A DNA stretch of 64,000 bases from Escarpia spicata. Lineage: Eukaryota > Annelida > Polychaeta > Sabellida > Siboglinidae. Shown piece by piece: positions 1 to 58,630 of this stretch (its first letter is position 1; each line of letters opens with the position of its first letter). The stretch is taken from contig OZ023209.1 of the NCBI GenBank assembly GCA_963995525.1, positions 30,574,544 through 30,638,543 of the forward strand, given 5' to 3'. The notes below the pieces were generated by a model. The model saw only the letters and a program-made list of their open reading frames with translations, made no database searches and was not told where the DNA came from. The translations under genes and the position numbers were made by a program.

Positions 1-1245
1 TGTGTCGTCTCTTCCCCCACAAGCCCACAATCACCCACCCTGTGTCCTCTCTTCCCCCACAAGCCCACAATCACCCACCCTGTGTCCTCTCTTACCCCAC
101 AAGCCCACAATCACCCACCCTGTGTCCTCTCTACCCCCACAAGCCCACCCTCTGTCCTCTCTTACCCCACAAGCCCACAATCACCCACCCTGTGTCCTCT
201 CTTCCCCCACAAGCCCACAATCACCCACCCTGTGTCGTCTCTTCCCCCACAAGCCCACAATCACCCACCCTGTGTCGTCTCTTCCCCCACAAGCCCACAA
301 TCACCCACCCTGTGTCCTCTCTTCCCCCACAAGCCCACAATCAACCACCCTGTGTCGTCTCTTCCCCCACAAGCCCACAATCACCCACCCTGTGTCCTCT
401 CTTCCCCCACAAGCCCACAATCACCCACCCTGTGTCCTCTCTACCCCCACAAGCCCACCCTCTGTCCTCTCTTACCCCACAAGCCCACAATCACCCACCC
501 TGTGTCCTCTCTTCCCCCACAAGCCCACAATCACCCACCCTGTGTCCTCTCTTCCCCCACAAGCCCACAATCACCCACCCTGTGTCCTCTCTTCCCCCAC
601 AAGCCCACAATCACCCACCTTGTGTCCTCTCTCCCCCCACAAGCCCACAATCACCCACCCTGTGTCCTCTCTTCCCCCACAAGCCCACAATCACCCACCC
701 TGTGTCCTCTCTACCCCCACAAGCCCACCCTCTGTCCTCTCTTACCCCACAAGCCCACAATCACCCACCCTGTGTCCTCTCTTCCCCCACAAGCCCACAA
801 TCACCCACCCTGTGTCCTCTCTTCCCCCACAAGCCCACAATCACCCACCCTGTGTCCTCTCTTCCCCCACAAGCCCACAATCACCCACCCTGTGTCCTCT
901 CTTATCCCACAAGCCCACAATCACCCACCCTGTGTCCTCTCTTCCCCCACAAGCCCACAATCACCCACCCTGTGTCGTCTCTTACCCCACAAGCCCACAA
1001 TCACCCACCCTGTGTCCTCTCTTCCCCCACAAGCCCACAATCACCCACCCTGTGTCCTCTCTTACCCCACAAGCCCACAATCACTCACCCTGTGTCCTCT
1101 CTACCCCCACAAGCCCACCCTCTGTCCTCTCTTACCCCACAAGCCCACAATCACCCCCTGTGTCCTCTCTACCCCCAGAAGCCCACATTCCCCCACCCTG
1201 TGTTCTCTCTACCCCCACAAGCCCACAATCACCCACCCTGTGTCC
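1..1245. repeat. 40-bp tandem array, ~30 units, with interspersed 30-bp short units
   Basis: The consensus unit is 40 bp; on the plus strand it begins CTTCCCCCACAAGCCCACAA. Shortened units recur near 131, 431, 711 and 1,101, so there is higher-order structure. The minus strand of each unit contains four G-runs with short loops, a canonical G-quadruplex pattern. The array lies downstream of or within the last known exon of the poly-EF-hand gene. The plus strand is open in all three frames because the unit has no stop codon and 40 is not divisible by 3; that is not evidence for coding. Confidence 0.95.
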
Positions 1246-1446
1246 TCTCGTCCTCTTTCTTCCCTTCCTCCTTCACCGTCTCCTTTCCAGAGGGATAAAA
1301 CGGACCAACGGGAATGTCTTTTTCCTCCCGCTGCCGGGGGTTTTCCCTGAGTTGGTGCCTGCTCGTGGCCGGGGAATGACTCAGGTTCTTCCTGCTCACT
1401 TCTTGCAGCAGCTGCAGGAATTCTGAGTAATTTATGAGACCATTTC
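1229..1446 (-). CDS. Exon 14: end of EF-hand 14 and charged tail (3' end uncertain)
   Basis: After a TCTTGCAG acceptor the exon completes loop 14 as DDNGNGLINYSE, followed by the helix EFLQLLQEV. A Lys/Glu/Arg-rich tail of about 55 residues follows, with no EF-hand 15. Three ends are possible: a stop (TGA at 1,229-1,231), giving about 629 residues; splicing at GTGGGT (exon end 1,237); or splicing at GTGAGC (exon end 1,400), with the rest of module 4 beyond the window. The last codons overlap the first unit of the 40-bp array. Confidence 0.65.
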
Positions 1447-4400
1447 CTGCAAGAGAAAATGTCAGCCATTTTTGTTAGGGCAGATGCGATTTGGAGAGAT
1501 GCAAGAATAATAATGATTTATCAATAATGATCACAGAAACTACATCAATGTCTTCTAACGACAAACTTGGTAACCATATGAAACACGTGTGTGCATTTAT
1601 CAACATAATTACATGCACTTAAATTTACTGTATATTCACTAAAAATAAATGTTAATAACATATTATTTTAATCGGATACGAACATGGAATGAGATTAAAT
1701 TCTTGTCTCACAATGATGCAATGTAAAATTACATAAAACACATTTGACAAAACCTGAAAAAAAATGCCAACTCACAGAGAAAAATTTAGCTTTTATTAAA
1801 AAACAAGGAGGTCACCATAGCATTAACGAGTTAATCAAACTGTTACTGTTCACAAACAATGTTAATATTTCAATCAGGAAGTGATTTCTGCACGCAACAC
1901 AATAAACCAGTAGTAATAGATTTAAGTACTTAGCACAACGTTAATGAGATAAGGCATCTGAGCTGGAGTGTTTATATCTGTACTTCACCATCTAGGAACA
2001 CACCATTGTCGTCTAACTTGTTGAAGTGGTTCTTGAGAATGGCTTCGCTAGTTGACTGGCCCAGGGCCTGGGTTATCCGGCGCACTTCATCGATCCCGAC
2101 AAGACCGTCCTGATCCTGGTCGAATTCCGTGAACATCACTTGCAGCTCCGAGTCTACACATGCAACACGATGCCCTCTACTGACAACTGAATTATGGGAA
2201 ATCGCCACAGTCCTATCTGTGACTGATCAGTGTTATTCGTTCACTGAATCGGAATGGACAGCATCATAGATAGCAAAGTTAATGTCAATAAATAATGATG
2301 TGCATTTTAATGTTATGTTTAATGTGGGGATTTATTACACAGGTAAGGGGGTGGCATCACTGCAGGGGTGGGGGGTCATTCCATCGATGGGGGTCATTCC
2401 AAATGGTAGGGGGCAACCAATCCAACCCATAAAACACTTGCTGCACATTTTCATTATGAATTAATATAATTTATGGTCGACCCCCAGACATTTACGATGC
2501 CTTAGGAAGGTTTCCACAGTCAACTTCTGACAAGGTATGAGAGCCAAAAAACTCACCATATCTACATAATTTATTTTGAATTAATTTAGGTATCATTACA
2601 GCATGAGAAAGATAACCAAACGAGTAAACCTATTTGCTTACCGTCGCTTGGTGGTTGGCCAGATAGCATCTGAAAAAGGCAAAGATAAAGGTTGATCTAG
2701 TGGCAAGCAAACACTACTCATTCACTTATCTCCTCCACACTCTATAACCAGGTACTCATTTATTTAGCGGACGTAATGAACATACATCTTTTCAAAAATT
2801 AGACAATTGTTAATATCTATTTATGTGATCTTTGTTCATTTGTAATTGTTCTTACTATTTTTACTTACCTATCTATGGTTTTATCAATTTTAAATATTTA
2901 TATTTGTTTAACGAATAGTTTATATAATTAAACTATTTTTTTAAATTGACTAAACATTGTAAAGCACCCAAGAGCACCTATTTGGATTGAGTGCTACATC
3001 AGAACAGTATTGAACAAGTGGGGGCGACTTGGTGGGAATGAAATAGCCCAAGCTTCGAAACAGTTCATTCTCTCACTCAACTCTGGGGTTATACCCTCCA
3101 TGCCCTGACAATCCCTATCTTGATGCCCCAGCCCCCTAATGCTGTTTCCAGCTCACCAGCCCCACACCTTCCCACAGGGAATTTATTGAAGTCAAAACCT
3201 GGTCTGTCCTGAATTGTTCTTCAATGTGCTGGCTGCCACAGGGCGGCCTTAGCTTCCATATCATCACTCTGAGTGCAATAATAATAAGGCAATTTCTATT
3301 GTGCTTAAATCCTTAGAAACCAAGCTCAGAGGCGCATCAAGAAAAAATGGTTGGTCAGTCTCAAAATCGATAAGCAGTATTTTATAAAGGTAAATTTTAA
3401 AATGATGGCAGAATTATGTAATATTTTCAACTGACGATCTGATCTAACAGTAACACTTTCCAAAGAGTTGGTGTAGCAACAGAAAAAGCCCTAGTTCAAT
3501 GTCCTACAAAATCTCTATCTATTCTCAGCATCTTCTGGGTAATTCTCTTCATATCTCGAAACAGCAACAATACCATTCTCACTTTAACTCTGCACCTCAC
3601 CAGGTAACTAGCAAGTTATTTCACACAAGGACTGTGATGACTGCAATCAAAGACAACACCTGTCGTTTACAGGTCTCTAGAAGTCTCACCTGTTGTCCAG
3701 GGAAATCACCAAGGAGTGGACACATCATTTGACAAAATTCTGAAAAACAACAAACGAAACTACTCATTATATGATAATAACAAATGTTTGACGACTGAAG
3801 CAAAATCAACAGATTGAACAGATTGAACAAATGGTGAACAGAAGAGAGGGATTTTCAAAACAAATGCTCATGTCTTAAAATGTCTTTTAGTTAGTAACAA
3901 TTAAGGGATAACAGATCTTAGTATTTAAACTGCATTTTTTACTGTTTTAAAGCAACTAGTCCTATATAATCAGCTGACCAAGTTTATGTGAATTTAGCCT
4001 AAAGATACTACCAGGGTATGTCAAATTATGTAGTAAAAATAATATTTCTATATTATAAAACAGTTCGTTCTCTGTTTTTATGTGAACCCACATCTCCGTT
4101 AGTTTTGTATGTACGGGCTGAAATTTTGCATGTGATCATCATTGAGATGGTTTGTAGATTTAGACAATTTGAAATTCGTCTGGGGGGGGGTTGAGGACTT
4201 GGGGGACTCAAGATTTCAAAAGGCTGTATGTGGATTTCCAGCCGCAGAATTTAATGTTTTTTATATAATCTTAAAGATAATTATGCCATCTACAAATATG
4301 TCACTGGATGTAAGCAGAAATTTTGAATAGTTTTTAAGTTATTGATGTCTGAAAATCAACAGCGCTTAACATGCACCAAGTCTACCTGTCGTCGGTCACG

Positions 4401-7400
4401 TCCGCATGCTTACAAGTAGCGCCCTCTTTCGCATTTCATATATTTCCTACAGATGGAGCTATGTGTCATTTAGCGACTAAATTATTGCCTGTCAAGTTAG
4501 TATTTTATAAAAAGTGAGTGTCAAAAGTTATATTGGGTAACTAAAATTATGCCAAATCTTCTATATTATAAAACAGTTTGTTCTCTGTTTGTTTGTGCAC
4601 CCACATCTCCGATAGTTGTGCATGTATCGGGCTGAAATTTCAACCCAGCATCCGCCCTCTGTCTGTTGCTGGTTACGTCAGTTACACGGGTGAGCGTGTG
4701 CAATTTCTGGCAAAAAGGTTGTCCTAGTGACCAGTTATAATGGATGGCTATGAGGTGTCCGGTGCATATGACTGCCTTTGTTCCCATGGCAACGCCAGGT
4801 AACTCAGCTAGTCATGTATCCAAATGTCTTAAATTAATAACTACATGTTTTTCTTGATTCAAATCTGTATAACTTGAATGTTTCCAAGGCGAATCCGATG
4901 TTTACCCTTGTACGCTGAGTGAAAATATTAATATTCTTAAACAGGTAGCAATCAAATTATAAAAAATGTGATTTGTTAAAACATATCCGAGTGTTCCATA
5001 TGCTAGAATATATATATATACAGGATGTGTATATATAACTGTATAATATATATATATATATATAATAGATATATTGTTCTATATAACATGATTTTATGCA
5101 AAAAAACAGACTTTTTAAAATTTTTAATCCTTCCACATGCAAGCTTAAAACTAAAACAACAGATTTTCCATCAGCCGCAAAATGAAAAAGAACCAGATCC
5201 ACATTCCACGACTCTGCTAACACGAACCTTTGTAGTGGATGTTTCCGTCGGGGCCGAGACCCGCCTCTCTCAGCATGGCCGCTATGTCATCTCCCGTCAA
5301 CACGAGACCGAGATCCTTCATCGTGTCACTTAGGTCCCTGGCATTGATGCTGCCATCTCTGTCCTTGTCGAAGACACCGAACAGCTGCTTCATCTCCTCC
5401 TCATCGGGGCCTCCTTCCAACGCGTGCTGCGTCAAGGACTTGTGTTGCTCCGCCCACGAAGCGAACTCCGTGAACTCGATTACTCCGTTTCCTGAAACAG
5501 CAGATAAGATTAAATTTATTTCCAATACAAACAAACACCCGTTTCCAACTAACTATTACTATGGTACATGCACTTTAACACAGAAGTATATATAAATGTA
5601 TGTATATATATTTATATAAATGACGTTTAATCGATTATATATTTATACCATACTGTTGTATTGCTGTTGTCATATGAAGTTTGAAATAAATAGGATTTGT
5701 AACAAATGTCCAATACAAACAACATATCATAATAGTAATACAAAATAATAATACAGTAGTATTATATTTTGTATTAGTTGCTATTACAAAAGGAATAAAT
5801 TGAAGAAAAATTCTTGGAAATATTTACCTCTTCTTTCATTATCACAATAATTTTATGCAAACATGGTATGTGTGTCAAGTCAACTTTCCTCATTAACATA
5901 TTTATTACACATCGTTAAAGTCTAATCGTTAACAATTTAACTAGAACTCACTATTACATTAATATGTTACATTTAATTCTTGTAACTATCTAGTAGCAAA
6001 AATCTCAATGGTGGGTCTAAGTCTTGTAGGTCAGTCGATGGGAGCGTTTTCAAGTTCATTCCATGCCATTTTTAAACTTTGAGGCAATTCTGCTCACCCC
6101 TCATTGCCTGTGTCTTTTGGAAGAGAAATCTGAAGATTTTAGCCCTTTTGCTTGGTGTCTGTGCCAGGGAAAGTCAACGATCCGACACAGAGGGTAAATG
6201 TGTAACCTACTGTGGATTCAGAGTTGACATCCCAACCTCTAAACTACCACAGTCCTAAAAAACCTGCCAATTATCCAGGTACAACATCTAAAATACTAAC
6301 ATCATTTTTAGCTCAATAATAGAATTACAAAAACTATGTTTGAATACATTATAAAAGCATGTATTTTATTGAAAATTATGACTTTCCTCACAGATTAAAA
6401 CCTGTCTTTCAAGCATCATCAACAAATACATGTACGTACCATCGAGGTCAATCTTGCGTACGATCTCCTTCACTTCGTCAGAGTCGACATCAATACCAAG
6501 GGAGACCATCACCTGAAGTACCTCAGCACATGTGATCACACCATCTCCATCTTTGTCGAACATCGCAAACGCAACCTTCACGTCTGTGAGACAACAACAA
6601 TGGCTATTTTAGTAAGCTTGTCGTACCTGGTTGCTAGGTCAAACGTGATGTAACTGATCCTTCAAACACTACCGGGTACTTCACATAAGTAATATATTGG
6701 CAATCCGACAGATCCTGGAATGTGAACTGGTTTACTAAAAAGAAAGAACAAGATTACATATAACATCGATAAAAACATAAGGCCCTTGATATCAATTTAA
6801 TTATTATTAAACAACAATTACCCGCGTACTTACAGCACTTGCCGCTGCAAACCAATACAAGCATTCACTATGACAATACTCGTGGTTGCAGCAACATACA
6901 CACATGCAAAATAACAAATGAATTCACAAAAATATGATCATGTATAAAGTGAAGCTTCTCATAAACAACAACAAAACGAATCAATAAAACGCAAAGGGAT
7001 TCACAAACTATGCTAAGTCATTTTTACCTAAATAAGTATCCAAAGCGATGTACGACATTGAACTAGCACGAACTAGACGTTACCATGTCTGCATGTTATA
7101 TACCTAATTAATGCAATATGCACCAAACTTCTAATTTTGTATTTTCAAATAAATAAATGGTTGCTTGGTATGTATGTTACTTGATATTGCTACTGATTTA
7201 ATCATGTTTATGTGTAAAGTGCAATTTATGGGTCTGAATAAACAACCATACAGATTTCCCGTATACAATATGATTTTTTCAGAGGACTTGACTGTAACTC
7301 ATTTTAGTAAGAATTGGCTTGAAATGAAAACATCACGATAAAGTACATATCTTCTTGTGTTCATTATACAAGTATAAACCCGACCAGCAAACTGATGTGG

Positions 7401-10400
7401 TAAAAGAAGAAATGTTGGACAGATTCCCGACAAAAACATAAGCATTTGGTTAGACGTAGGTAGGTGTATATGTTGTAGCACGGTAACTCGATAATGTAAC
7501 CCACAGGACTGCACCTGGCATGTCTTCGTGTCGTTTCACTTTCCCTTCGTCACTCAGACTCACTGAGTCAGCATCAGAGCTGCCCAGTGTCGCCATCTGG
7601 AGCAGAAAATCCTGTCACATCTAGAATGGCCTCTGGTGTCAATCAAATAGATTAAGTACACAAATACAAGCAGTTGGAAATGTATCTGTAAAGCCCGTTG
7701 TAAATACAGTTTGTATATTTCCGCACATTACAAAGTTATGTATTTTGTACAAATTATTTTGCTTAAATTTCTCTGATACATGCAGATTTCACTATTGATG
7801 GCATCAATAACCTGGGTGAGTTGAATACAAATATGAGTTTACCGATCGCTGTTTCTCGCCGATCTGCCCTGTCATCATCTGGAGGAAGTCTACAAGATCA
7901 ACAGAGAGAATGGTGGATTGGTTCAATGGACAACTACACAGACGCAGTCACAGGTCTAAGTGGGTCTTCTGACGCCCGTTTAATAAACCAAACATTTCTA
8001 CTAATAACTATTACTAATATTAACACATGGTTATGTTGTTATTAACAGTAATTAATTTCACACCACCTTAATATTGTTATACAGTGTTTTTTGCTGGCCT
8101 TTCATATGGGGAATTTACACATATGAAATCCTTCTATGCCCGTATAAGATGTACTTGTAATATTTACTGACAACATTTTAAACAAAAACAGGATTTGCCA
8201 GTACGACATTCAGGACTGGTCATATGAGTTGAATCTTAAAACACACTGGTCCTACACTAACTGGTATTGATGCAATGTGTGTTTGTTATAGAATACTTCC
8301 AATATTTATATACATAAATATTCTGCTATATATATTATTAACATGAGTCAAGGTGTTTCACATTACGATTTGACATGATTACTATCATACGAGCCATTTT
8401 TATATTTAAATTATACTGTCATGGAAATATTAATCCATCAACAACACATCACAGATAGCACTACATAACTCTGATTTTCCAATTTAAAATTCTGTGTTTA
8501 GTTGAGGGACGTATAATCTCTGTGTTTGTTGGCACACACAACCATTTGGTGTAGTACACTGACCTTTGTAGTTTTCTAGTTGTTGTCATAGATTTATTTA
8601 ATATAAAACTGTATGCGTGTACAAACATAACAAATGAGACTACAATAAATATAAGGATGACCCAAGAAAGTGAAAGCACTCATTTCCATTGTGGTCCTTG
8701 GACAGACACAGACAAATACATGACACAGTTATCAATAAATTATGACCAAACGACAAAGACTAAAATAACGATAATATAATTAATAAATACTAGCTAATGT
8801 TCAGATGTCAAAAATATTTTAATAATGATGATATTGAAAAGGGAGGGAGATTACCTCCTGATTATTAAGTCATTTGAAAACCGACTCACGAACTATATAT
8901 ACATCATACCAGTTCTAAAATTAAACACTTTGCCAAAAAATAGCGAGTCTTTATGTAGCTACAAACAAAGTTAGACTGAGCTGACCTTCATAGTAGATAC
9001 GTCCGTGTTTCGACGTGACGCCAGCCTCTCGCAACATCTCTTTGACGTCTGCCGCTGTCACTGGCATGCCGATCTCCGCCATTGTCAGCTTCAGCTCTTT
9101 GGCATCGATGTACCCATTGCTGTCTTTGTCAAATGCGGCAAACAACGCCCTCATTTCTGCATCCTCCGATTGTCGACTGACGCGCACCTCCACCATCTGC
9201 ACGAACTCGTTGAAGTCTATGAGGCCGTTGCCTGCGACACAGAAACACTAGTGTTGACGACTGGTTTAACAGATAATAATAATAATAATGCAGTCTTGTA
9301 TAGTGCTGATATCCGCCATATTGAGGCAACCATTGCATTTGCACAGTTCACTGATGATTTTAAAATAGTCAAATTAACTATTAAGAAGCGTTATTCTAAA
9401 AAAAAATATAATAAGAGTAATGCTCTAAAGATTATAAAATTAGTGTCATTATTATACATAATAAAACCAGTAACTATTATAAGATCGTTATCAAAGTAAT
9501 GTAGAATCGTAGCCAGTGGGTGACCAGTGAGTGACCACTTACCGTCCAGGTCGACGAGTTGGAATGTCTCTCGCAGTCTGTCGATGTCCGGCTGTTGCCC
9601 CATCGCATGCATCACCTGCATCACTTCGTCCATGCTGATGTTGTTGTCATGATCCTTGTCAAACAGCGAGAAGATGATCCTCAACTCTGAAACAAACACA
9701 ACGTTGATCCACACGCGGGATCGGTGGCCATGCGGTCGAGCGCCACACTGTCGATTGAGGGGATGGTGGTGCGACTCCATCTGCCGAAACTTCAGCGATT
9801 TCATTCACATCACAATGCCTTTGTCATTCGGAATATGTGACTCGCCACAGCGAAACAGGTATTAAGTGGCACGGGCCTATTCTGCACACGAAACAAAAAT
9901 AGCTGTCCAGGTCATGTTCCATCAATTTTTTATTTTTGGCAGAAATGCACAACTGATCTCATCTCCCAATGTCCAGTTTACTTTCCTCGACAAACAATCC
10001 CAAACTAATCCAAACCCGGGTTCTCTCGATTGAGCGTCCAATGCTCTAGTCAACGCGCATGTTCACTGTGTCACAATAGGACAATCTAAAAGCATTTTAT
10101 AAGTTGTTTCTTTAAAATATAATGTGTTTTACTTACCACCTTTCTGTTCTGGGGTGAACAAACCATTGCTGTTGAGAACTTGGCCAGATTTGATAAGTCG
10201 ATTCTGCATTAAAATTACAAACTCTGAAATGAAATGAGAGGACACAGGGTAAATAATGGTGCCCTGTTAATGTGTAACAACAACAGCAAATCTTGGTCAA
10301 CAGATATTTATATTTGAACTTTCTAAAACAGGTGTAACTGAATTATTTGAATACACATGCACCTGATTTATAATTTATGTTTCTGTATCTAAATACTTTG

Positions 10401-13400
10401 GAGATCTATGTATTCGTGCTAGCTCACTGCTCGTTGGGAATCTTTCAAACGAGACTGCATTAGATGTACTAGCAAACTAAGACGGTGCTACACAGACGCG
10501 CCCACAGAATGCGGTTACCTGATATATTCGAACATGGCATTTGCTATGTAAAAGTGAGCAGTTTTTTTAAACACAAATTACGTCCCCAAATGTTCATCAG
10601 ACGTCAGAACATTCAAAGAAATATTGCGCAACATCCATCCAACTTACAGTAGGAACCCTAAAACTGTTAAAAATCCTGAACCAATGTGAAATGTTGGCAA
10701 AATACAGGCGATTTATTATTCCCTGAAAGTTTATTGCCTGAGATGCAAACCGTCTTGGACCTTCGTGACGTCACAAATCCTGCGGCATGAGCTTAGCCAG
10801 ACACCCGCCTGCCTGTCTTCAAGACTGGCTAAAATGAGTAACAACAACTAATAAGACTGGTGGAATTTAGAGGGGGACAGCTGGCCAGTAGATTAACTAA
10901 TAGTTCCATGTCTAGGGGACCCACATTTATGACTATCATTGGCACAACTGCTAATGAAACAAATTGAATGGATCAATATTATTTAAATAAATGGCTCAAA
11001 TGACACTGATGTGTCTTTAAAAAAACTAAACTGGCCAATAATGGCTGTGATTGAAGTGAATGGCCTCCACGCAGGCCGCTCATGTACCAAAAGGCACACT
11101 TCTGATTAATTCAAGACTGACAGAAAATATTTCTTGCAAAGGGATTGTTCAACGGGGAACAGCCTATGATCTCGGCAGGTCTGTGACATTGTGAACAAAC
11201 CTGGGAAGTTTATCCGGCCGTCTTTGTCGAGGTCTGCCTCTATGATCATGTCTCTGACGTCCGCCTCTGACAACTCCTCCCCGAGCTCTCCCATTGTCTT
11301 GCGGATGTCCTCTCCCGTGATGTAGCCGTCACCGTCGGAGTCAAACACGTGGAATGCTTCCAGCATCTCGTCATCAGTGACGCTTTGTCGACGATTATGC
11401 GACAGCATGAACGACACGAACTCTTCAAACATGACCTTGCCCTTACCTTTGGGAAAGGTGGAGTGGCATATGCATGTTAGAGAGGGTTTCGACAAAGGGT
11501 GGTTCCATTCCCAAGGGAGGGAGTGTGCAAAATAGGTCTATTATGTCACTCAATTGTTGTGATATTACTCCGCTTTTTTCAAAATGATTCTTGTTAAACA
11601 TTCAACACTCTAAAATAAATATGCTTTACTCAATGTTTTTAATTCAAATCTAAACCAATTATTCATGTCCAATGCAATATTACATTAACCATTATTAAAG
11701 CAAGTTGCGCAGATTATTTTTAAAGTCACGTTATACAATAGTTCATCCTGAATTTATATTAGTTTTTAGTAAACAACACAAGAAACTGACTAAAGGAGGA
11801 ACATACATTAGAATGAATACACAAACCAGGTCAACTTTACCAAGACCTTAACTAAGTGGAGGTGGCAAAACATACCTCAACATGTCATCAACATTGGAAT
11901 TATAAATGATTTGCATCAAATCAGTATGTTCATGAGTATTGTAAATGCCATCCAAATTGTCTACACTGATAAGAAAGAACAGTTATGATTATATATATGA
12001 CATAGTGTCTTTATTTATTAGATTATACTTATCCACGTAATAACTGTGGCAGGGCTTAGGTAGATCCAGGGGGCCTGGGTGACACATGTCCCCCCTAGAC
12101 CTTTGGGATGTGCCCCACTAGCCTGATGTCTCCCCCCAAACCTTTGGAATGTGTCCCCATTTTTATGAGCATCTAGGGGTGTGTAATTAGAGGTTTGGGG
12201 AGAGACTCAATATTGATTTTTGGTAAGCCTCAAGGTGGATGCAATTGGAGATTTTTGCCTCCCCCCAGATTACCCTCTCTGGATGCACCCATATAGGTGA
12301 AAGTTATGAATACTGAGCACTACATACATGGCTACTGTCAGTTTTTGTTTTTCATCATATCAATTTATCAAAAACATACCGTATGTACTACATTCTGTTT
12401 TATGATTATTTAAATTTATGCAGACAACTAGTTAAGTTACATGGTAACTGTGATTCACTGACTGATTAAAATAATTATCTATCTTAATTAATACTATGAA
12501 ATTAGAGTTTAATTACCATTACCCGAACCACTAGCTTCAAGCAACGCGGCCTGCATTGCGGACGTTGTAAACAGCTGTGCTATGTTGTAATGTAGGAAAC
12601 ATGCAACGGCGGTTCAAAAGATTCTCAACTGGTTCTTCACTGCACAAAAATGCAGTAATGAGCTGTTAATTAAGGCAGCCCTGGAACAGCAACAGTGGAT
12701 GTGCGCCTGTTTCACGCCACGAGTCGATCAGACGCAACACAAAATGGCACATCTGACACTCACACTATCGTAATCAGTATCTGTGATGGTGGTAGTACTG
12801 GTGGTGGTTGTGCTACAGGTGGTTGTGGTTGTTATGGTGGTGGTTGTGGTGGTGGTGGTGGTCCAATATTCAATGACATTGAATGGTGATGCTGAAACAT
12901 GACAGGTAGCTAAATTGGGTGATCTATTTAACTATGACACGTAGCTAAATTTCACTACCAAAATATGACAGGTAGTTAAATGGCAACACTGAAAAGTGAA
13001 ACTGAAAGGAAACCCCAGTGGCTTCGCAGGCTTGGTGCTATAGATGTAAATGATATGAATGGAATGTGATTGTTTATGAAGTTCAGACAACTCATGTATA
13101 TAACTGCCGCAGGACACCTTACATATGTGAAAGTTTCTCAATGGAATAGGGAATATTCATTTAAATACAAAATGTAGACTATGAAATGTTCACAACAGCA
13201 ATCCTACAGAAAAAAGTGATTCTAAATTAAAAAAATCCAGAACTCTGAGGAAGAACACACTTAACAAGGAGTACTGTACTTTCAGAGAATTAGAAAAGAC
13301 ATGTTATCACATGTGTAAACATGACATAGGACAGTGAATGATGTTATGAACACATGTATGGCAGTCATGCAGACTTCTTTGTCACACCAGTAAATGCACA

Positions 13401-14783
13401 TGCAAGTAAGTACTACCTTCACTGTCGACATGGCGAATCATTTTCTTGATGTCGTTAGGTGTAACGTTTTGTCGTAAGCGCTGCATGACTGTCATCAGCT
13501 CATCGGACGTGATATAGCCATTCCGATCCAGGTCGAACTCATCGAAGGCCTCTTTCAGCACTGAAAACCGACCAACTATTACGTTCATTAGTGAGTGAAG
13601 TCATCAATAAAGATAAGGTAAGTTCTTATATAGCGCAGTATCATTGTGCCATGCTGTGATTTTACACTTAGATGAACAGAATACCCCCCCAAAGACCAAC
13701 GCCCCATCAACCATGACATTTAGCAAGCACAAAGGGGAAATTGCCCACCTGTGATCTACTTTTCCCTAGCTATGTAATCAGTAGTGTTAACTGTTAATAA
13801 ATGGACGGAAACACAGTTCTGTTTATATCAGTCGCTATTTAAAGAACATTTATTGCCAATCTGCCATATACAATTCACATGATTATATCATTTAATAGAC
13901 ATGTAATTTAAATGGCCAACATATATATATGTTAAACAAATTTGTCATAACTGTGATGGCTCCTATGATAGTGACAGTACGTCTTAATGGCAGCCACTGA
14001 CCCCCAATTTGTCTTAAAATAAAAAGGTGCTTTTCTTTTAAATAATTTATATACTGGTTTCAAAGATGGTGTATACATACATTATAATTATACATATATT
14101 GTATTTGTGTAAAAGCATATACCTGATATGTTTATTGTGTTAATATTTGTTATATCTTGGGGTCAAAATAAACTTCTTGTTCTATGAAGCAACTGCCATC
14201 ATTCAAAGCAAAAATGAATTTAGTAGATTTTACATGCATATAGTTTCTGACTTTCTGTCAATAAAGTCAGTTTTACTTGTGACAAGAGACTCTGACAATG
14301 TACTGGCTGACCTCTGCAGCCTTGCTATTACTTGTGGCTGGCCACTTATCTATGCTTGATATCTTTCCGGTGAACTTTCATATCAGTGCTAATTCTGCAC
14401 TTCTCCCAACATCTTATCCTGCCGTAGCTGTCGGCTTACATTAACCCCCCAGCAACCTCCCAGGCTTAAACAGGATCCCAAATAATCCCTCTAGAGCAAA
14501 CGTGAACTGCCAAAAGCCAGGAAGACTCACAGAGGCAACTTCAAATAAAAGTGAACACATTTTGATTTTCAATTACTAACTTATAGGAACAATCAAATCA
14601 AATTTATTTAGACATCACCAACCCCTACAAATAGATTTAGGGGTGTTTACAAACAAAAGCACGAAGTAAGAATACATTGCGTAAATGATTTAATAATTAT
14701 TACAATACATGTGTTACATAACATAACACTATAAAAACCACACATCTCGATTATCTATGTATGCCATATATAATATTAAAATG

Positions 14784-14815
<32 letters not shown>

Positions 14816-17800
14816 CTTTATTAAGGTAGCAGAACTCCAGTCATATCATTTTAAAATATATAAGTCACTCTCAAAAACCTATAATATTATTAGAATGACT
14901 ATACATAATTTATTCAAGAGACAATTTTTTTTGCATAAATTATGCAAATTAATACTCAAAATGTCTGCCAACGACAGAAATATATGAAATTTTTCAAACA
15001 ATATATTTTCAGAAGCATACATCATAATGATCTGAAATTTACACACAGCATTTACTACATGGTACTGTATGGGATGGTGAAAGAGTGTAACAAATAAATG
15101 ATATTGAAAAATTTTATGTGGAAAAAACTAAAATCGTAAATTGTTTTCTCCAAATTATGTATTCTGACACATGGTACACTAATTCTAAAATAAGTACAGC
15201 AAAATGCTTTGATCATCCCATATAGCCGAGTCTTGTGTACTTCTCTTTCAAATTTGAAGCAAATTCGAAAAAAAATGGCGACGCTATGATGTTTGAATTT
15301 TTAAAATAGATACACTAGAAATTATCGTATCCAAGGACAAATCACGTTGCTATGGTAAAATCTGATGTGACCTAAAATTACATGGTTACTCCATATGTGT
15401 AATAAAACTATTTTTTTATTATTATTTCACTTAAAATGTAATACTTAATGTAGGAAAACATATTTTTCAAGGTAAATATGGAGAAAAAAATATATATAAA
15501 TTTCTTCACATTTGACTGGAGGTCTGCTACCTTAAAATGAAAGGTTTTCAGGTCCCTCCTAAAATGTCCACAGGCATGTTATGTTGTATGACTATGAATC
15601 AGTACAAAATCAGCACAAAAACACCTTGATTTTCTTATCTTATCGATTGCAAATTACAACCAAATTAATAATAGGACACTTTACGTTTTAATATATTTTA
15701 GTTAGAAACCGACACCAAACATATTCTTACAAGTCTATTTTTTTTCTAAATATCATGTATACATTTTATTGGGTTTAATCAACAGATTAACATCTGTCCT
15801 ATAGATACATTACAAAATATTTCTGGACATAACCTTATGTGGGTCAAAGTTTTAGGTCCGTGTGAATACGTCTGACACTGTGCATGCTTTTCACTGCATG
15901 CCCAAACTGATTACAGAAGAGAACAAAGTCTGTATGTGATAATGATGTCACTGTTGGTTCTTATAATATCTACGACAGTAAAAAGTTATAGCACTTTCTA
16001 TCCCAAGATGCAACACGTGACTAAAGTGTCCGAAATGTATGCCAGACACTGTTAGTTCGTTGGTATATACTGGGGTAGTGGTCTCCATCCTAATGTGTGT
16101 AGCATGCCTGTCACACTGGAGGTGTTATGGCGGACAGCACGGTGTTGAATCATTTCTATTTTGTTTATTTGTGTGTATATATACGGATCCCAGACGGTAC
16201 AGCAGTTTTCCTGAATGGGTCTAACAAAGGTGAAGTAGGCCTGAGTTTTTATTTGGATAGACGGAACTTTGAGATTTCTGCGGAAGCCGATTAGCGTTTG
16301 TAGAAATGTTATTACGTGGGCATTCCACCGAAGATCTGAGGTTTTGGTGACATCAAGATATTTTAACTGTGAGATAGTTTAGACTAATGTTTGACCATGG
16401 AGCACGTATTGATTGCTTACAATAGTTTTGTTTCTAGTTACTGGTATGACGTGGCACTTTTGCAGATTTTTAACTCCATTTTCCAAATCACTACCCATTT
16501 CCAAGTTTATCAAGATCTTCCTGGAGCACAGCAGCATTTGACATGGGCTTAAGGGCTTGATACATCATGGTATCATCGGCAAATAGTCTGTAAGATGTAA
16601 TATTTTCCGGGATGGTATTGACGTAAAATAGGAATAAGCAAAGACCAAGCATGGAGCCCTGTGGAACACCTGATGTAACGGCGACCTCGGACGAAGCCTC
16701 ACCCTCTATCACAACTCTTTGGGTTCTGTTTGATAAGAATGATAAATCCATGAATTTGTTTTACCTTGGAGACAAAATTGTAATCTTTTGATCTAATAAA
16801 AACATCTTAATAAAGTAAATAGTTATGTGATCTTTAGCCTATTACCTTTAATTTAAAACAATTCCCAATGTTCTAGCACGATAATAATTTTTTTGAAGTG
16901 TGAGAGATTAAGTCTGATCCATGTTTTTAACCTGCATCTGCAAGTTTTTATAAATATTTCTAACCAGCACTGTAGAGTGTACACTTTGTGTGCGCACACC
17001 ACAACACCATCCACGAGATCATTATATACATATTAATATTATTAAGCTATTTCTTAATGACGTCATAGAGCGGGAACCCAGCACTTTTATTCATGTAAAA
17101 AGGGCCAAAGTGTTTGACCCCATGTGTTTGAGGGACCATCCCCCGACATCACAAACATGAGTTGCAGGCGGGTCTTGGGTGGTGGAATGTCCCCTAAATC
17201 ATCCCCCGAAGTGGGCAAAAAAGTACCTTTATTTATGTGAACAGCGCCAAAGCTAAAAACAATTTCAAAAGTTTCCCTGGTGTTCCCCGAGTACGGAATG
17301 ACCAATGACAGCAACTTTAAGTGGTGGAATCCCCCAACGATTGACGAAACTGTATTTATTCACGCAAACACCTAGCCACATCCTTTCCTTCCCAAGACCC
17401 TGTCGTTATGGGTGTTGTCACGTCCAACTTTTGCATTCAGGTCTGCCATGACAATTGTGACGTCATGGCGTGGTGACCTGTCAACTTCTGCTTGAAGGCT
17501 TTGGTAGAAAGCGTCCTTGTCCTCATCCTCTCCGTCATTGGTCAGTGCATAGCACTGGAGGAGGGTGATGTTTCCATGTCTCCCCTTCGGTCGAACTCTC
17601 ATCAGACTACAGCTGACAGGTTTCCACCCCAGCAATGACTTTTCCACCCCTTTCTTCATGAGAAATGCTACACCTTCGTGATGCTGGTTGTTGTATCGTC
17701 CAGAGTACAGTGCCGTCTCTCCTGTTGCTCTTGTCAGTCTTCCCGAACTGGTCCACCTGCTTTCACTCACTCCAAGGATGTGCAGGCTGTCTCATTTCTG

Positions 17801-20800
17801 TGGTTATCTGCACCACTTTTCCAGTTTCATACATGGTCCTCACAATCCAAAATGCAATCCTGTTCTTCATTTTTACTCAGCACTCCCATAATCGCCTGGC
17901 GAAGGCTAACAACCCGGTCTTGTAAAAGAAAATTATTGTTACGGAAACAGCGACGAACATAACTTTCACAACTGTGCATGAAGGCCTTCCAGAGTCAACG
18001 ACTGCCACTGGTGAAAGCCAAACGGAAGCCACAGGGCTTCCGTTTGTTTGCCCTGTGCTAAACCCCCAACCTGGAGGAACACAAAATTAAAGATACGCAA
18101 GGAAATCTCCTCACGACAGAGGAGGAGCAAGAAACTTGATGGACAGAACATTTCAGTGAAATACTAAACAGGCGACCACCAGAAGAGGAAGCTGTTATAG
18201 AAGAAGCAGACCTGGAGATAAACACAGAAGCTCCCCAGAGAGGAGAAATCATTGCAGCCATCAGGACATTAAATAATAGAAAGGCACCTAGGCATGATAA
18301 CCTTATAGATTTTGAGAAAGCCTTTGACAGCATCCACAGAGACTGCCTCTGGCGCATTCTCAGATCATACGGAATACCACAACGCATCGTCAACATCATC
18401 AAAGCTTTCTATACCAACTTCATCTGCAATGTTGGAACTGGTCAGTGATCTTCACTTTGTGGTTAAGACAGGTGTGAGACAGGGCTGTGTTATGTCAGCT
18501 GTCCTTTTCAATGTTGTCATCAACTGGGTCATGGGACGAGTGACAGAAGATGTACCAAGAGAGCTTCGCTGGACTCCCTTTTCTACACTAGAGGATCTGG
18601 ACTTTGTCGATGACCTTGCTCTCTTGTCCCACTCACAAACACAGATTTGGCCGTCAGGTTGGTTTGTGAATCAGATAAAAAGAAGACGAAAGTTGTGACA
18701 CTGAATGTTAACATGCCAGCCTCAGTGAAGATGGAGAACATGGACCTTTCCAGCACTGAACCATTCACTTACCTTGGAAGTGTCATCAGTCAAGATGGAG
18801 GAGCTGGTTTAGACACCCGCAACAGATTAAACAAGGCACGGAATGAAGATGCTGGAGGTGGATTGGACATGCCCTTCGCATGGATGCAGATGCCATCACA
18901 AAAACAGCTGTCTGGTGGACAGCAGAAGGGATGCGAAAACGTAGACGTCCAAAAACAACATGGTGGAGAACAGTGATGGCGGAGATGAGGGAAATGAACC
19001 ACAGCTGGCACCATAGACGAATGGCCGGAGACAGACAGAGGTGGAGGAACTTCGCCGCTGCCCTAAACAGGGGTGTAACGGGTAGTGAGTAAGTAAGGAG
19101 GTTCAGCTTGCGAATGTGTACAGAGGTAAAAGGGCAATACTACATTATCAAGATTTCAGGGGTACCGCATGATGTAATCGTATAAAATCGGTCTTAAAAT
19201 GTCTCTACCAGTTGCATATTCATTGTTATTTTTGGACGTTTCTACTCTCAGTAGGCATTAAATAAGTGTGTTAGCATAATAGCTTAACCTTTCTGGAATA
19301 ATTGTTAGATTAAATCAATTGTGGACCAGTGTGTTGCGGAAGTGGCTGGATGGTTGTCTAAAAACCAGTTAAAACTTAACACAGAGAAATTCGAGGTGAT
19401 CGCCACTGTGAAAAGTTGCTACTATCATACTAGAAACATTGAGCGAATTCGGCCACATCTGACGGAAGAATCATGCAAGACACTTGTTCACGCACTAGTG
19501 ACATCCCGTTTAGATTATGGGAATGCACTTCTTTATGGTCTCCCACACACGGTGATGCAACGTCTACAAAGGGTGCAGAACTGTGCCGCTCGCCTAATTA
19601 CTCGCTCGAGGAAAAACAAATACATCACGCCCATGTTGCAGCATTTACATTGGCTACCCATGCATTTGAGACCAACCTACAATGTGCTGGTGTTTCCATA
19701 TTGTGCTTTGAATGGCATAGCACCGGACTACATAAGTGAGTTAATTGGCTACCGTCCCATCAACAGAACTCTACGATCTACCTCGCATTTTGTTTGTAAC
19801 AGCCTCACAAACTGGTACTCATGGTGATCACCGTTTCGCGGTTTGCTTGGCAGTTCTACAGAACAATTTGCCTCCTACGCTCACGACAACAACATCATTA
19901 CAAGTGTTTAAAACACTTTTGCAGACTCACCTTTTTAAACAAGCATTTTTATAATTTACCAATGAGGACATTTGATGTGCTTTCTTTTGATAAATATATT
20001 TTTTTTTGGTTAGTTTCTAAGCATATTTATGGTTATTCTTCTTGTATAAATGAATGTATTTAAAGTAGTTTTTAAGAATGTCTTAATATTGTTTTTAATT
20101 TAACAGTTTTTAATGATCTCTCTTTTTAAAATTGTTTTTTAGGTGTGTATAGTTAAGGTAATGTTATATTTTTGTACATATTTATTTCTTAATTAGCATT
20201 TCTTTTTATGTAAAATACTATTATACATAATGTGTGTGCATGTATATAAAGCGCCCGTGAACAATTTTTATTGATCGGGTGCTATAGAAGTACTTTTATT
20301 TATTTAGAGTAGTGGAAAATGCATATAATCTCAAACTAATCGATGGAAATAAATGTTGATAGTGCAGTAATTTGTAACAGCCTTTATACAAACACGTTAA
20401 CTAGTTAATAAATCATTAATTGGTCCTAGGACCAAGGGCCTAGCTAGATATATATAACAAAACTGTAATTTGTAAAATGTAAATTCAATAGTATCAGTGC
20501 CAGTGGATCATCGAAAGTTTTTGATTTTTAATTAAAGTTTTGATCTTGCCAGCCCAACTGCCGATAAGGCATGGAAAATCTTTTTTTTTTAATATGTCAC
20601 TTAATATGTATTATTTGCTACTTTAAATTTCTATTAAACTTGTGTAGGTCACCCCGTCACGTAATTGCCAAATGTGGGTGTGACACTGACAGTCGGTATC
20701 GTAAATTAAAACAAACCTACTGTTAGTGTTACAAGTCCAATTACAAATTGTACGGGTTGCATTACCTGACAGCAATTCTTCCGATTCTGAAGTACTCAGT

Positions 20801-21223: not shown

Positions 21224-21257
<34 letters not shown>

Positions 21258-24200: not shown

Positions 24201-24719
24201 GTGTTAGTGTGTAAGCATAATAATTAAACAATTTCCCCTAAACACTGACCGATATCAATATCAAATAAAATTTATTGGTAATATGCAATAAATAGATAGC
24301 TGGTTACAAGTTAATTAAAATATATCTTATTTTTAAATAATGGGTATTATTTGCAAACGTTAATTGAAATATAGGCCTATTATTATTATACAATAATACG
24401 CATTGTTTCAGTGTCCAAGCTCGAAAGAAAAACGCTGCTTAAGTAATCAATAGCATTGTCAATAGTCGGCAGTGAATGTTATTTACAAAATTGGATGATA
24501 TAATATTGTATATGTCTGAAACCACCCATCGCGGTCGCTACGTGTCTGATCATGTCGATATTATTACATGGCAGATAGAGGTCTATGCTAAATTGTATAA
24601 TGGCACTGGCGAACTAATGTCAGTTTTATACTACAGACGCACTGGATTACCTCAAATCATGTACACACTTGGCTGTATTATAATAGCGAACTATGACCGA
24701 GTATACGCGCGAGTGTGCA

Positions 24720-24751
<32 letters not shown>

Positions 24752-25860
24752 TCAATGTGGGTGTAATTACACTGTAGGCGTAATTAGGAGTAATTAAAAA
24801 TAGCACTTAGTTTACATAACTAACATTTATTGCAAACGTTCATCGATGGATATTTCCTCTTCCTTGGGAAGAATAGCAATGCGCTGTAAATTAAATATCA
24901 TATCGGCCCTGATTAACAACTTGTAGCGTGTATAGCTGTATACCATAAGTTTATTGTGATAAAACACACATTCAACTATTATATCTAATTGTTTTAATGT
25001 AAACCTCTAAACTTATATTATTCTGGCACAAGGATACACTGGAACTTTTCACCCGACCTGATCAGGCCAGACCAGACCAGACCAGACCAGACCAGACCAG
25101 ACCAGACCAGACCAGACCAGACCAGACCAGATCACACCAGACCAGACCAGACCAGACCAGACTCCCCGGTGATCTGCTATACTCGAAGCCGGCATAACGC
25201 CATAATCACATAAACTTGAACACTTTCGAATACATAAGATTGACGCGGACTAGCCCCGACTTAGTCGAAAGTTGTCAAGTTTACGTGATTATGGCATCAT
25301 GCCGGCTTAGAGTATAGCGCAGTTAGTGTAAGAGTCAATCGGTGTAGGGAATACACTGCAGTCGGAGGGAGTCTGATGTGGGCGGGTCTGATCGGGTCGA
25401 ATCGGGCGAAAAGTGCCAGTGTATCCCGGTCTTTATTTGCATCTAGAGTTACATACTTGGAAGGGTATCATGTCTGAGTATCTTTCCTATATAAAAAAGA
25501 ATTACGCATTCTGCATGTCGGCGTAATGTCGCAATCACGTAAACCAACCACCCAACAGCAATGCGAAGGGTAGTTTAAAAAATTACAACGAGGTTGCGTG
25601 AAACAATCTCGTGACCGTGGATAGCCACGTCGCACGCTACGACGAAGGTTATAATTAACGACGAAAGCCCGGATTTCCGACTTTAGAATTATCTGTGAGT
25701 TTCGAACAGGAGTTCAGTTAACAAATAATGGGAGCATAAAATTGGAAGAACCGCACTAATGGCTCCTAATTACAACAATAATTGATGTGTTTCCCGTGAT
25801 GTGTTCGAATCAGAACTCACCCACCATCTCGTCCTCGGTTACTTCGGCTGGTTCCTTCAT
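1229..25860 (-). CDS. Poly-EF-hand calmodulin-like protein, 14 exons (gene-level entry)
   Basis: This multi-exon gene was rebuilt from GT/AG sites and reading phase; the parts are listed exon by exon. The spliced frame stays open for about 629 residues. It holds 14 EF-hand positions, with loops at residues 23-34, 59-70, 97-108, 133-144 (module 1), 182-193, 218-229, 255-266, 291-303 (module 2), 355-366, 391-402, 435-446, 471-482 (module 3), 519-530 and 555-566 (module 4, half). Twelve loops look able to bind calcium; those at 291-303 and 471-482 lack the first acidic ligand. No signal peptide or membrane segment is visible, so a cytosolic calcium sensor or buffer is inferred. The start is the first in-frame ATG after an upstream stop (25,879-25,881), and residues 6-18 align without gaps to the calmodulin N-terminus. 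The 3' end is uncertain. Separate tandem genes with read-through splicing remain possible. Confidence 0.85.
2004..2153 (-). CDS. Exon 13: EF-hand 13 and start of EF-hand 14
   Basis: This 150-nt exon is equivalent to exons 2, 5 and 9 with two extra codons. EF loop 13 is DQDQDGLVGIDE. It ends in loop 14 after DDN plus the first Gly base. The donor is a weaker GTGTGT. Another GT (gtgaag) lies 15 bases downstream, but using it would destroy loop 14. Confidence 0.85.
2642..2669 (-). CDS. Exon 12: short linker
   Basis: This 28-nt micro-exon runs from phase 0 to phase 1 between a TTTTTCAG acceptor and a GTAAGC donor. It encodes MLSGQPPSD. Its place, phases and leading ATG match exon 8. It is predicted only because it joins exons 11 and 13 in frame with good splice sites. 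Confidence 0.65.
3260..3515 (-). mobile_element. LINE 3'-end fragment (same family as 22.8 kb)
   Basis: The plus strand starts with (ATA)n, then a segment near-identical to 22,803-23,090: ...CAAGCTCAGAGGCGCATCA... and, further in, AGAGTTGGTGTAGCAACAGA. It is a 5'-truncated 3' end, inserted in an intron antisense to the plus strand. There are small internal deletions and no intact frame. Confidence 0.8.
3690..3739 (-). CDS. Exon 11: end of EF-hand 12
   Basis: This 50-nt exon runs from phase 1 to phase 0 after a TTTTTCAG acceptor, with donor GTGAGA. It encodes EFCQMMCPLLGDFPGQQ, the F helix of EF-hand 12. Size, phases and the EF-x-QMM pattern match exon 7. Confidence 0.8.
4046..4645 (+). repeat. 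Pair of ~85-bp direct repeats, 512 bp apart
   Basis: Copies at about 4,046-4,130 and 4,559-4,644 share TATATTATAAAACAGTT and CCCACATCTCCG, ending GGGCTGAAATTT. They differ at several bases. They may be ends of an unknown element or a segmental duplication within the intron. Confidence 0.65.
5228..5491 (-). CDS. Exon 10: end of EF-hand 10, EF-hand 11, degenerate EF-hand 12
   Basis: This 264-nt exon matches exons 3 and 6 with six extra codons in the linker before EF-hand 11 (around HALEGGPDEEE). It completes loop 10 as DLDGNGVIEFTE and contains loop 11, DKDRDGSINARD. Position 12 (GLGPDGNIHYK, last Glu from exon 11) lacks acidic residues at loop positions 1 and 3, so calcium binding is unlikely, as in EF-hand 8. 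Confidence 0.92.
6440..6583 (-). CDS. Exon 9: EF-hand 9 and start of EF-hand 10
   Basis: The exon is 144 nt and phase 1 at both ends, like exons 2 and 5. EF loop 9 is DKDGDGVITCAE, an ideal calcium-binding loop apart from a Cys at position 10. The exon ends in EF loop 10 after DLD plus the first Gly base, at donor GTACGT. Confidence 0.92.
7515..7596 (-). CDS. Exon 8: inter-module linker
   Basis: This 82-nt exon runs from phase 0 to phase 1. It starts exactly at an ATG after a CTCCAG acceptor and encodes a Ser/Asp-rich linker (residues 319-345, beginning MATLGSSDADS). It contains no EF-hand. Because it begins with ATG, it could also be the first coding exon of a separate downstream product from an internal promoter; transcripts would decide this. 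Confidence 0.75.
7843..7889 (-). CDS. Exon 7: end of EF-hand 8
   Basis: This 47-nt exon enters in phase 1 after a CTTGTAG acceptor and leaves in phase 0 at GTAAAC. It encodes DFLQMMTGQIGEKQRS, the F helix of EF-hand 8. It was found because the frame needs such a helix after exon 6, and it matches exon 11 of module 3 in size and phase. Confidence 0.8.
8986..9231 (-). CDS. Exon 6: end of EF-hand 6, EF-hand 7, degenerate EF-hand 8
   Basis: The exon is 246 nt, the same length as exon 3. It completes loop 6 as DLDGNGLIDFNE and contains loop 7, DKDSNGYIDAKE. The eighth position reads GVTSKHGRIYYE(D): one residue longer than normal and without Asp at positions 1 and 3. It is therefore probably unable to bind calcium and kept for its fold only. 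The following donor is GTCAGC. Confidence 0.92.
9271..9345 (-). mobile_element. Possible L2-like LINE 3' tail
   Basis: An (ATA)n run followed by GCAGTCTTGTATAGTGCTGATA resembles, on the minus strand, the GCGCTATATAAG...(TTA)n ends of L2/CR1-type LINEs. A similar phrase (TTCTTATATAGCGCAGTATC) occurs at 13,622-13,641. There is no coding part, so the call is weak. Confidence 0.35.
9543..9686 (-). CDS. Exon 5: EF-hand 5 and start of EF-hand 6
   Basis: The exon is 144 nt, the same length and phase as exon 2. EF loop 5 is DKDHDNNISMDE; Asn replaces the usual Gly at loop position 6, which may lower affinity. The exon ends within EF loop 6 after DLD plus the first Gly base, at a GTAAGT donor. Confidence 0.92.
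10005..10062 (-). mobile_element. SINE fragment (tRNA-like head)
   Basis: On the minus strand this segment reads AGAGCATTGGACGCTCAATC followed by GAGAGAACCCGGGTT. It matches the tRNA-like head of the SINE at 46.13 kb (AGAGCATCGGACTCTCAATC). Only the head is present, within an intron. Confidence 0.65.
10137..10223 (-). CDS. Exon 4: end of EF-hand 4 and linker to module 2
   Basis: The exon is 87 nt and follows a TTTCAG acceptor. It supplies the last Glu of loop 4, the F helix (EFVILMQNRL) and a polar linker ending near TPEQKG. The donor is a consensus GTAAGT. If this intron were retained, the frame would stop two codons later (TAA at 10,129-10,131) and yield a plain four-EF-hand, calmodulin-sized protein. 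Alternative products are therefore possible. Confidence 0.85.
11201..11446 (-). CDS. Exon 3: end of EF-hand 2, EF-hand 3, most of EF-hand 4
   Basis: The exon is 246 nt and phase 1 at both ends. Its first codons complete EF loop 2 as DSEGKGKVMFEE. EF loop 3 is DSDGDGYITGED, and EF loop 4 starts DLDKDGRINFP and gets its last Glu from exon 4. The linker MGELGEELSEADV resembles the calmodulin C-lobe linker. The antisense strand also has open frames here; they are shadows. Confidence 0.92.
12051..12292. mobile_element. Degenerate hAT-like MITE
   Basis: The left end CAGGGCTTAGGTAGATCCAG and the inverted right end GGGTGCATCCAGAGAGGG share an ATCCAG core followed by G-runs, as in many hAT termini. 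The interior is C/G-run rich and non-coding. The ends are too diverged to define a target duplication. Confidence 0.4.
12785..12863 (+). repeat. (GGT)n-rich microsatellite
   Basis: Imperfect GGT/TGG trinucleotides over about 80 bp, with a pure (GGT)5 near the end. Confidence 0.8.
13417..13560 (-). CDS. Exon 2: EF-hand 1 and start of EF-hand 2
   Basis: The exon is 144 nt, with acceptor TTTCAG and donor GTAGTA, phase 1 at both ends. EF loop 1 is DLDRNGYITSDE, with acidic residues at positions 1, 3 and 12 and Gly at 6. The exon stops inside EF loop 2, after DSE and the first base of the Gly codon. The same break point recurs in exons 5, 9 and 13. Confidence 0.9.
16020..16760 (-). mobile_element. 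LINE fragment, reverse transcriptase and C-terminal part
   Basis: The minus strand encodes TSGVPQGSMLG and RLFADDTMMY, the two central motifs of non-LTR reverse transcriptases (CR1/Jockey group). Further 3' it reads LKYLDVTKTSDLRWNAHV and ends near VTGMLHTLGWRPL. Stops and frame shifts interrupt it. It is 5'-truncated and presumably inactive. Confidence 0.85.
17372..17965 (-). mobile_element. RTE-like LINE, endonuclease half (inverted)
   Basis: The minus strand encodes a piece of an apurinic-type endonuclease: VRTMYETGKV, SESRWTSSG, then HHEGVAFLMKKGVEKSL and DVTIVMADLNAKVG. Residues VMADLNAKVG fit the catalytic Asp-Leu-Asn motif of the EEP fold. One frame shift lies near 17,770. It abuts head-to-head the reverse-transcriptase half at 17,970, which is on the opposite strand. 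Confidence 0.85.
17970..19100 (+). mobile_element. RTE-like LINE, reverse transcriptase half
   Basis: The plus strand encodes FEKAFDSIHRDCLWRIL, a GVRQGCVMSAVLFN block, EPFTYLGSVISQDGG and a C-terminal MDADAITKTA...RWRNFAAAL block. There are several stops and internal deletions; for example NRKAP is followed almost directly by DFEKAF. It belongs with the endonuclease half at 17,372-17,965 but is inverted relative to it. Confidence 0.85.
19321..20310 (+). mobile_element. L2/CR1-like LINE, C-terminus and 3' UTR
   Basis: The open frame carries WLSKNQLKLNTEK, ALVTSRLDYGNALLYGLP and QHLHWLPM, typical of the region after the reverse transcriptase in L2-like LINEs. After a frame shift LQVFKTLLQTHLFKQAF follows. 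The 3' UTR ends with AAAGCGCCC...GGGTGCTATAGAAGTAC and (TTTA)n, an L2-type tail. The copy is 5'-truncated. Confidence 0.85.
21151..21322. repeat. (ACAT)n microsatellite with CA/CG-rich end
   Basis: About 120 bp of ACAT tetramers, then CACACACGCACG repeats to about 21,322. It ends next to the LINE at 21.3 kb. Confidence 0.95.
21325..22330 (+). mobile_element. Non-LTR retrotransposon fragment
   Basis: Three plus-strand frames together encode SSGVTQGCVLAPTLFGI, LPFADDATCTSHS, then RSTLLYGSESWTTYMRLERR and FHMRCLKRIFGITWQDRVP. This is the reverse transcriptase core and C-terminal region of a LINE. Frame shifts and stops are present and the 5' part is missing. Confidence 0.85.
22801..23885 (-). 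mobile_element. CR1/L2-like LINE, 5'-truncated copy
   Basis: Read on the minus strand, the copy starts near LYADDTQIYIA (around 23,800) and runs through WMTDSKLKLNANKTEL and SSRLDYCDLLIY. After a frame break near 23,330 it continues as SLHWLPVRYRILFNI and FRRHLKTYLYNLTYPP with a stop. The 3' UTR ends in (TTA)n. Fragments of the same family occur at 3.3 kb and 50.1 kb. Confidence 0.88.
24716..24752. repeat. (GTGC)n microsatellite
   Basis: About nine GCGT/GTGC tetramers. Confidence 0.9.
25028..25432. mobile_element. Foldback element with (GACCA)n arm, copy 1
   Basis: The left end is GGATACACTGGAACTTTTC and the inverted right end GGGATACACTGGCACTTTTC. The left arm expands into about 18 GACCA pentamers. 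The core is an imperfect palindrome: AATCACATAAACTTGA on the left, TCAAGTTTACGTGATT on the right. There is no coding capacity. Other copies lie at 27.5, 39.2 and 43.6 kb. Confidence 0.85.
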
Positions 25861-58430: not shown

Positions 58431-58630
58431 NNNNNNNNNNNNNNNNNNNNNNNNNNNNNNNNNNNNNNNNNNNNNNNNNNNNNNNNNNNNNNNNNNNNNN
58501 NNNNNNNNNNNNNNNNNNNNNNNNNNNNNNNNNNNNNNNNNNNNNNNNNNNNNNNNNNNNNNNNNNNNNNNNNNNNNNNNNNNNNNNNNNNNNNNNNNNN
58601 NNNNNNNNNNNNNNNNNNNNNNNNNNNNNN
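58431..58630. other. Assembly gap of 200 N
   Basis: Exactly 200 N, so probably a placeholder of unknown true size. Frames drawn across it are meaningless. Confidence 1.

Follow-up and report, generated by a model that had tools for sequence, protein, structure and literature searches.

A predicted annelid gene of 25 exons for a single chain of about 22 calmodulin-like EF-hand positions

Textbook EF-hand sensors carry two to six hands, and calmodulin has about 149 residues, four canonical loops and a nearly invariant sequence. A 64,000-nucleotide stretch of the Escarpia spicata genome (the whole stretch analysed, hereafter the window; C5:30574544-30638543, as placed by a search of its own assembly) holds a long run of calmodulin-like exons on its minus strand. 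The locus raises the question of whether these exons form one gene for a single chain or several genes in tandem, and of what a chain of this kind would do in the cell. The best overall explanation, to which we assign a probability of roughly 0.8, is a single chain of about 22 EF-hand positions acting as a multivalent Ca2+ sensor.

Results

Gene model

Fourteen minus-strand exons were modelled in the window, from exon 1 (25860-25821) to exon 14 (1446-1237). All 13 introns between them have GT-AG ends, the phases are consistent and the joined exons give 627 codons without a stop, which bears out an earlier sequence-only reading in which the exons had been joined in one frame. More exons lie just past the low edge of the window, where 11 (exons 15-25) extend the gene to its end at C5:30555023. 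The complete model has 25 exons and 24 GT-AG introns over the 45,381 bp of C5:30555023-30600403, and predicts 1038 residues followed by a single terminal stop; the mRNA would presumably be spliced as modelled. The features are given below, with the residues identical to those of P0054, a Lamellibrachia protein described in the following section.

Exon 1, 25821..25860, minus strand: candidate start codon (MKEPAEVTEDEMV), open frame, donor GTGAGT; 2/13 residues identical to P0054
Exon 2, 13417..13560, minus strand: module 1 EF1 and start of EF2; 31/48 identical
Exon 3, 11201..11446, minus strand: module 1 EF2 (degenerate), EF3 and start of EF4; 68/82 identical
Exon 4, 10137..10223, minus strand: end of module 1 EF4 and linker to module 2; 24/29 identical
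Exon 5, 9543..9686, minus strand: module 2 EF1 (near-canonical) and start of EF2; 44/48 identical
Exon 6, 8986..9231, minus strand: module 2 EF2, EF3 and start of degenerate EF4; 76/82 identical
Exon 7, 7843..7889, minus strand: end of module 2 EF4 and linker, weak donor TCG/GTAAAC; 15/16 identical
Exon 8, 7515..7596, minus strand: linker, first codon ATG, kept in Lamellibrachia; 22/27 identical
Exon 9, 6440..6583, minus strand: module 3 EF1 and start of EF2; 47/48 identical
Exon 10, 5228..5491, minus strand: module 3 EF2, EF3 and start of degenerate EF4; 70/88 identical
Exon 11, 3690..3739, minus strand: end of module 3 EF4 and linker; 14/17 identical
Exon 12, 2642..2669, minus strand: short linker, opening ATG, which is serine in Lamellibrachia; 4/9 identical
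Exon 13, 2004..2153, minus strand: half-module 4 EF1 and start of EF2; 46/50 identical
Exon 14, 1237..1446, minus strand: half-module 4 EF2 and long linker, donor AGG/GTGGGT at the minisatellite edge; 50/70 identical
40-bp minisatellite, 1..1253, no strand assigned: start of intron 14, running on past the window; its unit repeats the exon 14 donor
Exons 15-25, C5:30573176-30555023, minus strand: past the window start

Exons 7 and 14 have donors that agree with the consensus at only 5/9 positions, and so do five more of the 24 donors. Exon 1 sits 12.3 kb upstream of the others and is a candidate first exon, as yet unproven; a tblastn search of the window with the N-terminal 75 residues of P0054 gave no convincing match to a conserved first exon upstream of exon 2. 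Intron 1 contains reverse transcriptase fragments at 16491-16751 (minus strand) and 18312-18698 (plus), both below the Pfam curated cut-off. The window also has an assembly gap of 200 N at 58431-58630.

Pfam EF-hand_7 (PF13499) matched the spliced translation of the window part in seven stretches (E 2.8e-97; 319.6 bits against a cut-off of 30), the check that the sequence-only reading had proposed. Its count of at least 14 EF-hands stands as a count of positions. When a loop is called canonical only if all six scored residues are present, just 10 of these 14 are canonical, one is near-canonical (DKDHDNNISMDE) and three are degenerate, namely EF2 of module 1 and EF4 of modules 2 and 3. A strict loop pattern, which misses loops split by introns, gave seven matches in the six frames of the 64 kb, all seven on the minus strand and between 2086 and 13534. 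In the whole protein, a profile built here found 20 EF-hand rows, 14 of them canonical, and two degenerate positions added by eye bring the number to about 22, more than five times as many as in calmodulin. They are arranged as five four-EF-hand modules and one half-module, the fourth, joined by non-EF linkers. The three full modules and half of a fourth that had been read from the window are retained as a layout, with the correction that module 4 is itself a half (EF1-2 only), in this gene and in Lamellibrachia alike. The predicted protein has a pI of 4.8 and contains 5.3% Met overall.

A related chain in Lamellibrachia

Protein searches, in which about 8000 candidates each were scored within a length limit, gave as the closest named protein among those scored a 'putative calmodulin-like protein 2' of Lamellibrachia satsuma (P0054, 1292 aa). 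The sequence-only reading had pointed to a mollusc; this origin is ruled out by the best named match, which comes from a siboglinid annelid. P0054 is 84.8% identical over window residues 13-405 and 77.3% identical over residues 392-626, linkers included. Across exons 2-14 it keeps 511 of 614 residues, and even the linker exons (4, 7, 8, 11 and 12) keep 79 of 98. Exons 15-25 were found as well. The modules follow in identical order in the two proteins, the linkers are shared, and the EF4 loop is degenerate in modules 2 and 3 of both worms. Colinear modules and shared linkers show that the gene, as judged from the predicted proteins, is a member of the P0054 family.

The two proteins differ in their N-terminus, and P0054 carries an insert, a tandem repeat some 200 residues long, before the equivalent of exon 10. 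The repeat, at P0054 residues about 434-636, has a unit of about 14 residues (GNGVIQFGVFGAVS) that is similar to the start of exon 10, and is absent from the window; the insert may be minisatellite DNA that was taken for coding sequence. P0054 itself comes from gene prediction, and its single chain is a prediction as well.

The conservation also bears on the idea that the locus is a decaying pseudogene. Decay would suit the large minisatellite at the exon 14 donor and the loss of ligands from some loops. Against this, 25 of 25 exons are open with GT-AG sites and most residues of exons 2-14 are those of Lamellibrachia, which makes decay very improbable. Of the 40 listed P0054 matches in the genome, 11 fall at this locus (C5:30.558-30.586 Mb), 6 resemble other EF-hand genes (37-56% identity) and 23 are chiefly to the P0054 repeat insert; an intronless copy is absent among these 40 (36 of 952 candidates scored).

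Evidence for a single chain

Little weight for a single chain can be placed on the open frame by itself, since the phase-1 symmetry of most exon units would let tandem genes join just as well. We therefore considered the module junctions one at a time, together with the rival explanation that the locus contains two or more tandem genes, most plausibly an 8-EF-hand gene (exons 1-7) and a second one that begins at the exon 8 ATG. At junction 1/2 (exons 4 and 5) there is no stop ahead of a good donor, and exon 5 starts without an ATG. Exons 8 and 12 each begin with ATG after the acceptor, as separate or fused genes would show, but at junction 3/4 the exon 12 ATG is replaced by serine in Lamellibrachia. 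Exons 15-17 and 21-22, at junctions 4/5 and 5/6, have no opening ATG. Separate genes split after exon 4 or exon 11 are ruled out by the lack of an ATG at the start of exon 5 and by the serine in Lamellibrachia.

Junction 2/3 is where tandem genes have most in their favour, since the exon 8 ATG is the sole internal opening ATG that is kept in Lamellibrachia, and an unspliced exon 7 would run into a stop after 12 codons. In addition, the named chains P0003, P0008, P0009, P0011 and P0129 look, in our reading, like tandem calmodulin genes merged by annotation. However, the intron between exons 7 and 8 is only 246 bp long and has neither AATAAA nor ATTAAA inside, and three relatives, P0001, P0005 and P0007, cross the equivalent of this junction in one ORF. 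A split after exon 7 is thus unlikely, and tandem genes as a whole are a decidedly improbable account of the locus. Poly(A) signals do not discriminate elsewhere, because AATAAA turns up in many introns, among them the ones that follow exons 4, 6, 9 and 11; it was not seen in the 479 bases examined after exon 25.

The CpG content points the same way. Low CpG is a mark of methylated gene bodies in invertebrates, and the observed/expected ratio had a median of 0.58 over 44 one-kb segments of the gene (24-26 kb left out), compared with 1.04 over 38 segments upstream. There were exceptions, with segments at 5 and 9 kb near 1.0 and some upstream segments below 0.6, and the rise starts within intron 1 and not sharply at exon 1. 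The contrast fits a single gene and is supportive only.

Further relatives were found as unnamed ORFs. Two from Logan, P0001 and P0002, are 1029 and 1032 aa long in contigs of 3363 and 4274 nt and are 92% identical to each other. Each is one uninterrupted ORF that encodes calmodulin-like modules, the EF4 loops of the middle modules being degenerate as in the window gene; they differ in having six full modules (24 EF-hand positions, 17 canonical) and only 36-37% identity to the window protein. A continuous ORF means that one chain is encoded, whether or not the contig represents a transcript. Together, the conserved linkers and the relatives that read through the junctions support the single chain that the sequence-only reading had proposed, and one 25-exon, 45-kb gene very probably encodes a single chain of 1038 residues.

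Comparison of the lobes suggested how such arrays have changed. Reciprocal best lobes with this protein numbered 6/11 in P0001, 5/11 in P0004 and 3/11 in P0006, and in P0001 the N-lobe matches of modules 2 and 3 were out of order. A tree of 27 C-lobes placed the last one of this protein with its last-position counterparts in P0001, P0004 and P0006 (95/93), its third with the second of P0001 (92/91, on a long branch) and its second among several middle lobes (90/91); the first and fifth had no supported placement. The lobe matches and the tree suggest that the array has kept part of its order between distant relatives, and that modules have been gained, lost or reshuffled.

Predicted activity of the chain

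If the chain is made as predicted, Ca2+ would occupy the live loops, and the lobes would then open Met-lined clefts in the manner of calmodulin. A string of such lobes could bind several targets, or several sites on one large target, and the outcome would be a multivalent Ca2+ sensor that buffers as well. We scored Met at the positions that we take to line the calmodulin cleft, using simple pairwise alignment. The C-lobes have Met at 18/20 of these positions and the N-lobes at 10/24. The corresponding counts for C-lobes and N-lobes were 18/24 and 14/24 in P0001, 13/20 and 6/16 in P0004, and 14/20 and 7/16 in P0006.

These counts bear on the possibility that the single chain is chiefly a Ca2+ buffer, with many loops and no target binding. 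A buffer would be consistent with the low pI, with about 14 canonical loops on a single chain and with the modest Met content of the N-lobe clefts. A pure buffer, however, needs no clefts, and the C-lobe clefts are rich in Met compared with the protein overall, even though EF4 of modules 2 and 3 is degenerate. The retention of cleft Met in the C-lobes therefore favours, if indirectly, lobes that bind targets, and leaves a mainly buffering role unlikely, while still the strongest of the functional rivals.

A third possibility is that the chain is built into cilia or another filament as a structural component. The model here is EFCAB6, described in PMC8595878 as a long chain with multiple EF-hand motifs that is built into mammalian doublet microtubules; it is like the predicted chain in its length and its many EF-hand motifs, and was matched at E 1e-17. 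The match extends to 22% identity over 31% of P0054, which does not indicate orthology, and similarity of about 22% is what EF-hand proteins share in general. The loops of EFCAB6 are also mostly non-canonical: by the same profile, the penguin protein (P0137) has 10 EF-hand rows with 2 canonical, compared with 20 rows and 14 canonical here. A structural role is accordingly improbable, and we favour, with moderate confidence, a sensor over either a buffer or a structural part.

The structure model of P0001, built from seven sequences, is weak (mean pLDDT 64, pTM 0.23), and its packing is not reliable. Helix-loop-helix units recur along it, and the segments that separate the modules are of low confidence, as would be expected of beads on a string.

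Discussion

Calmodulin is the nearest familiar system. Its four-EF-hand module of EF-hand pairs recurs in the predicted chain, the lobes of which are 31-48% identical to calmodulin lobes, and the best solved-structure matches were calmodulin constructs. It differs in having one four-loop module, compared with five and a half here, and in lacking the degenerate loops and long linkers; with 1038 residues, 22 positions and lobes at that level of identity, orthology to calmodulin fails.

The sequence-only reading had called a chain of this kind unusual, and this was overstated, for other long EF-hand chains exist. Besides EFCAB6 in mammalian cilia, LOC119680298 of Teleopsis dalmanni (P0128, 1219 aa) is likewise a predicted single chain, with 25 EF-hand rows of which 20 are canonical; it comes from a fly, its repeats are of another EF-pair type, and it looks like an independent expansion. 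Long EF-hand chains also occur in oomycete proteins among the matches listed. Among the papers listed in the literature searches, which covered few subscription journals, none dealt with a calmodulin-like chain this large. As far as these sources extend, long EF-hand chains are already known and the new feature is a calmodulin-like chain of about 22 positions.

If the prediction is true, a chain of about 22 hands in which linkers are conserved and dead loops fixed would lend itself naturally to multivalent Ca2+ sensing, and would offer a system for asking why evolution fuses calmodulin-like modules rather than using several calmodulins. It would also illustrate how phase-1 exon units can duplicate in frame, and why tandem calmodulin genes that were annotated automatically should be checked.

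The minisatellite at the start of intron 14 adds a possible level of control. It has 32.4 copies within the window, and the exon 14 donor recurs in 45 exact copies within a 2.1-kb part of the intron, which is 2.6 kb long. There is a human precedent for a minisatellite with repeated splice donors in the interferon gene 6-16. If the first donor of exon 14 is left unspliced, an in-frame TGA follows after two codons, and use of a downstream donor would thus truncate the chain to 14 EF-hand positions. We put forward, as a speculative proposal, an undescribed 'poly-calmodulin' family of 22-24 positions, in annelids and probably wider, with each module keeping a set pattern of live and dead loops and the product being a multivalent Ca2+ sensor or scaffold; in this worm the donor copies, at least 45 in number, could balance the full chain against the truncated 14-EF-hand form. 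Short tandem repeats are also found at another exon of the gene, exon 24, which they adjoin on both sides (C5 about 30557900-30558550).
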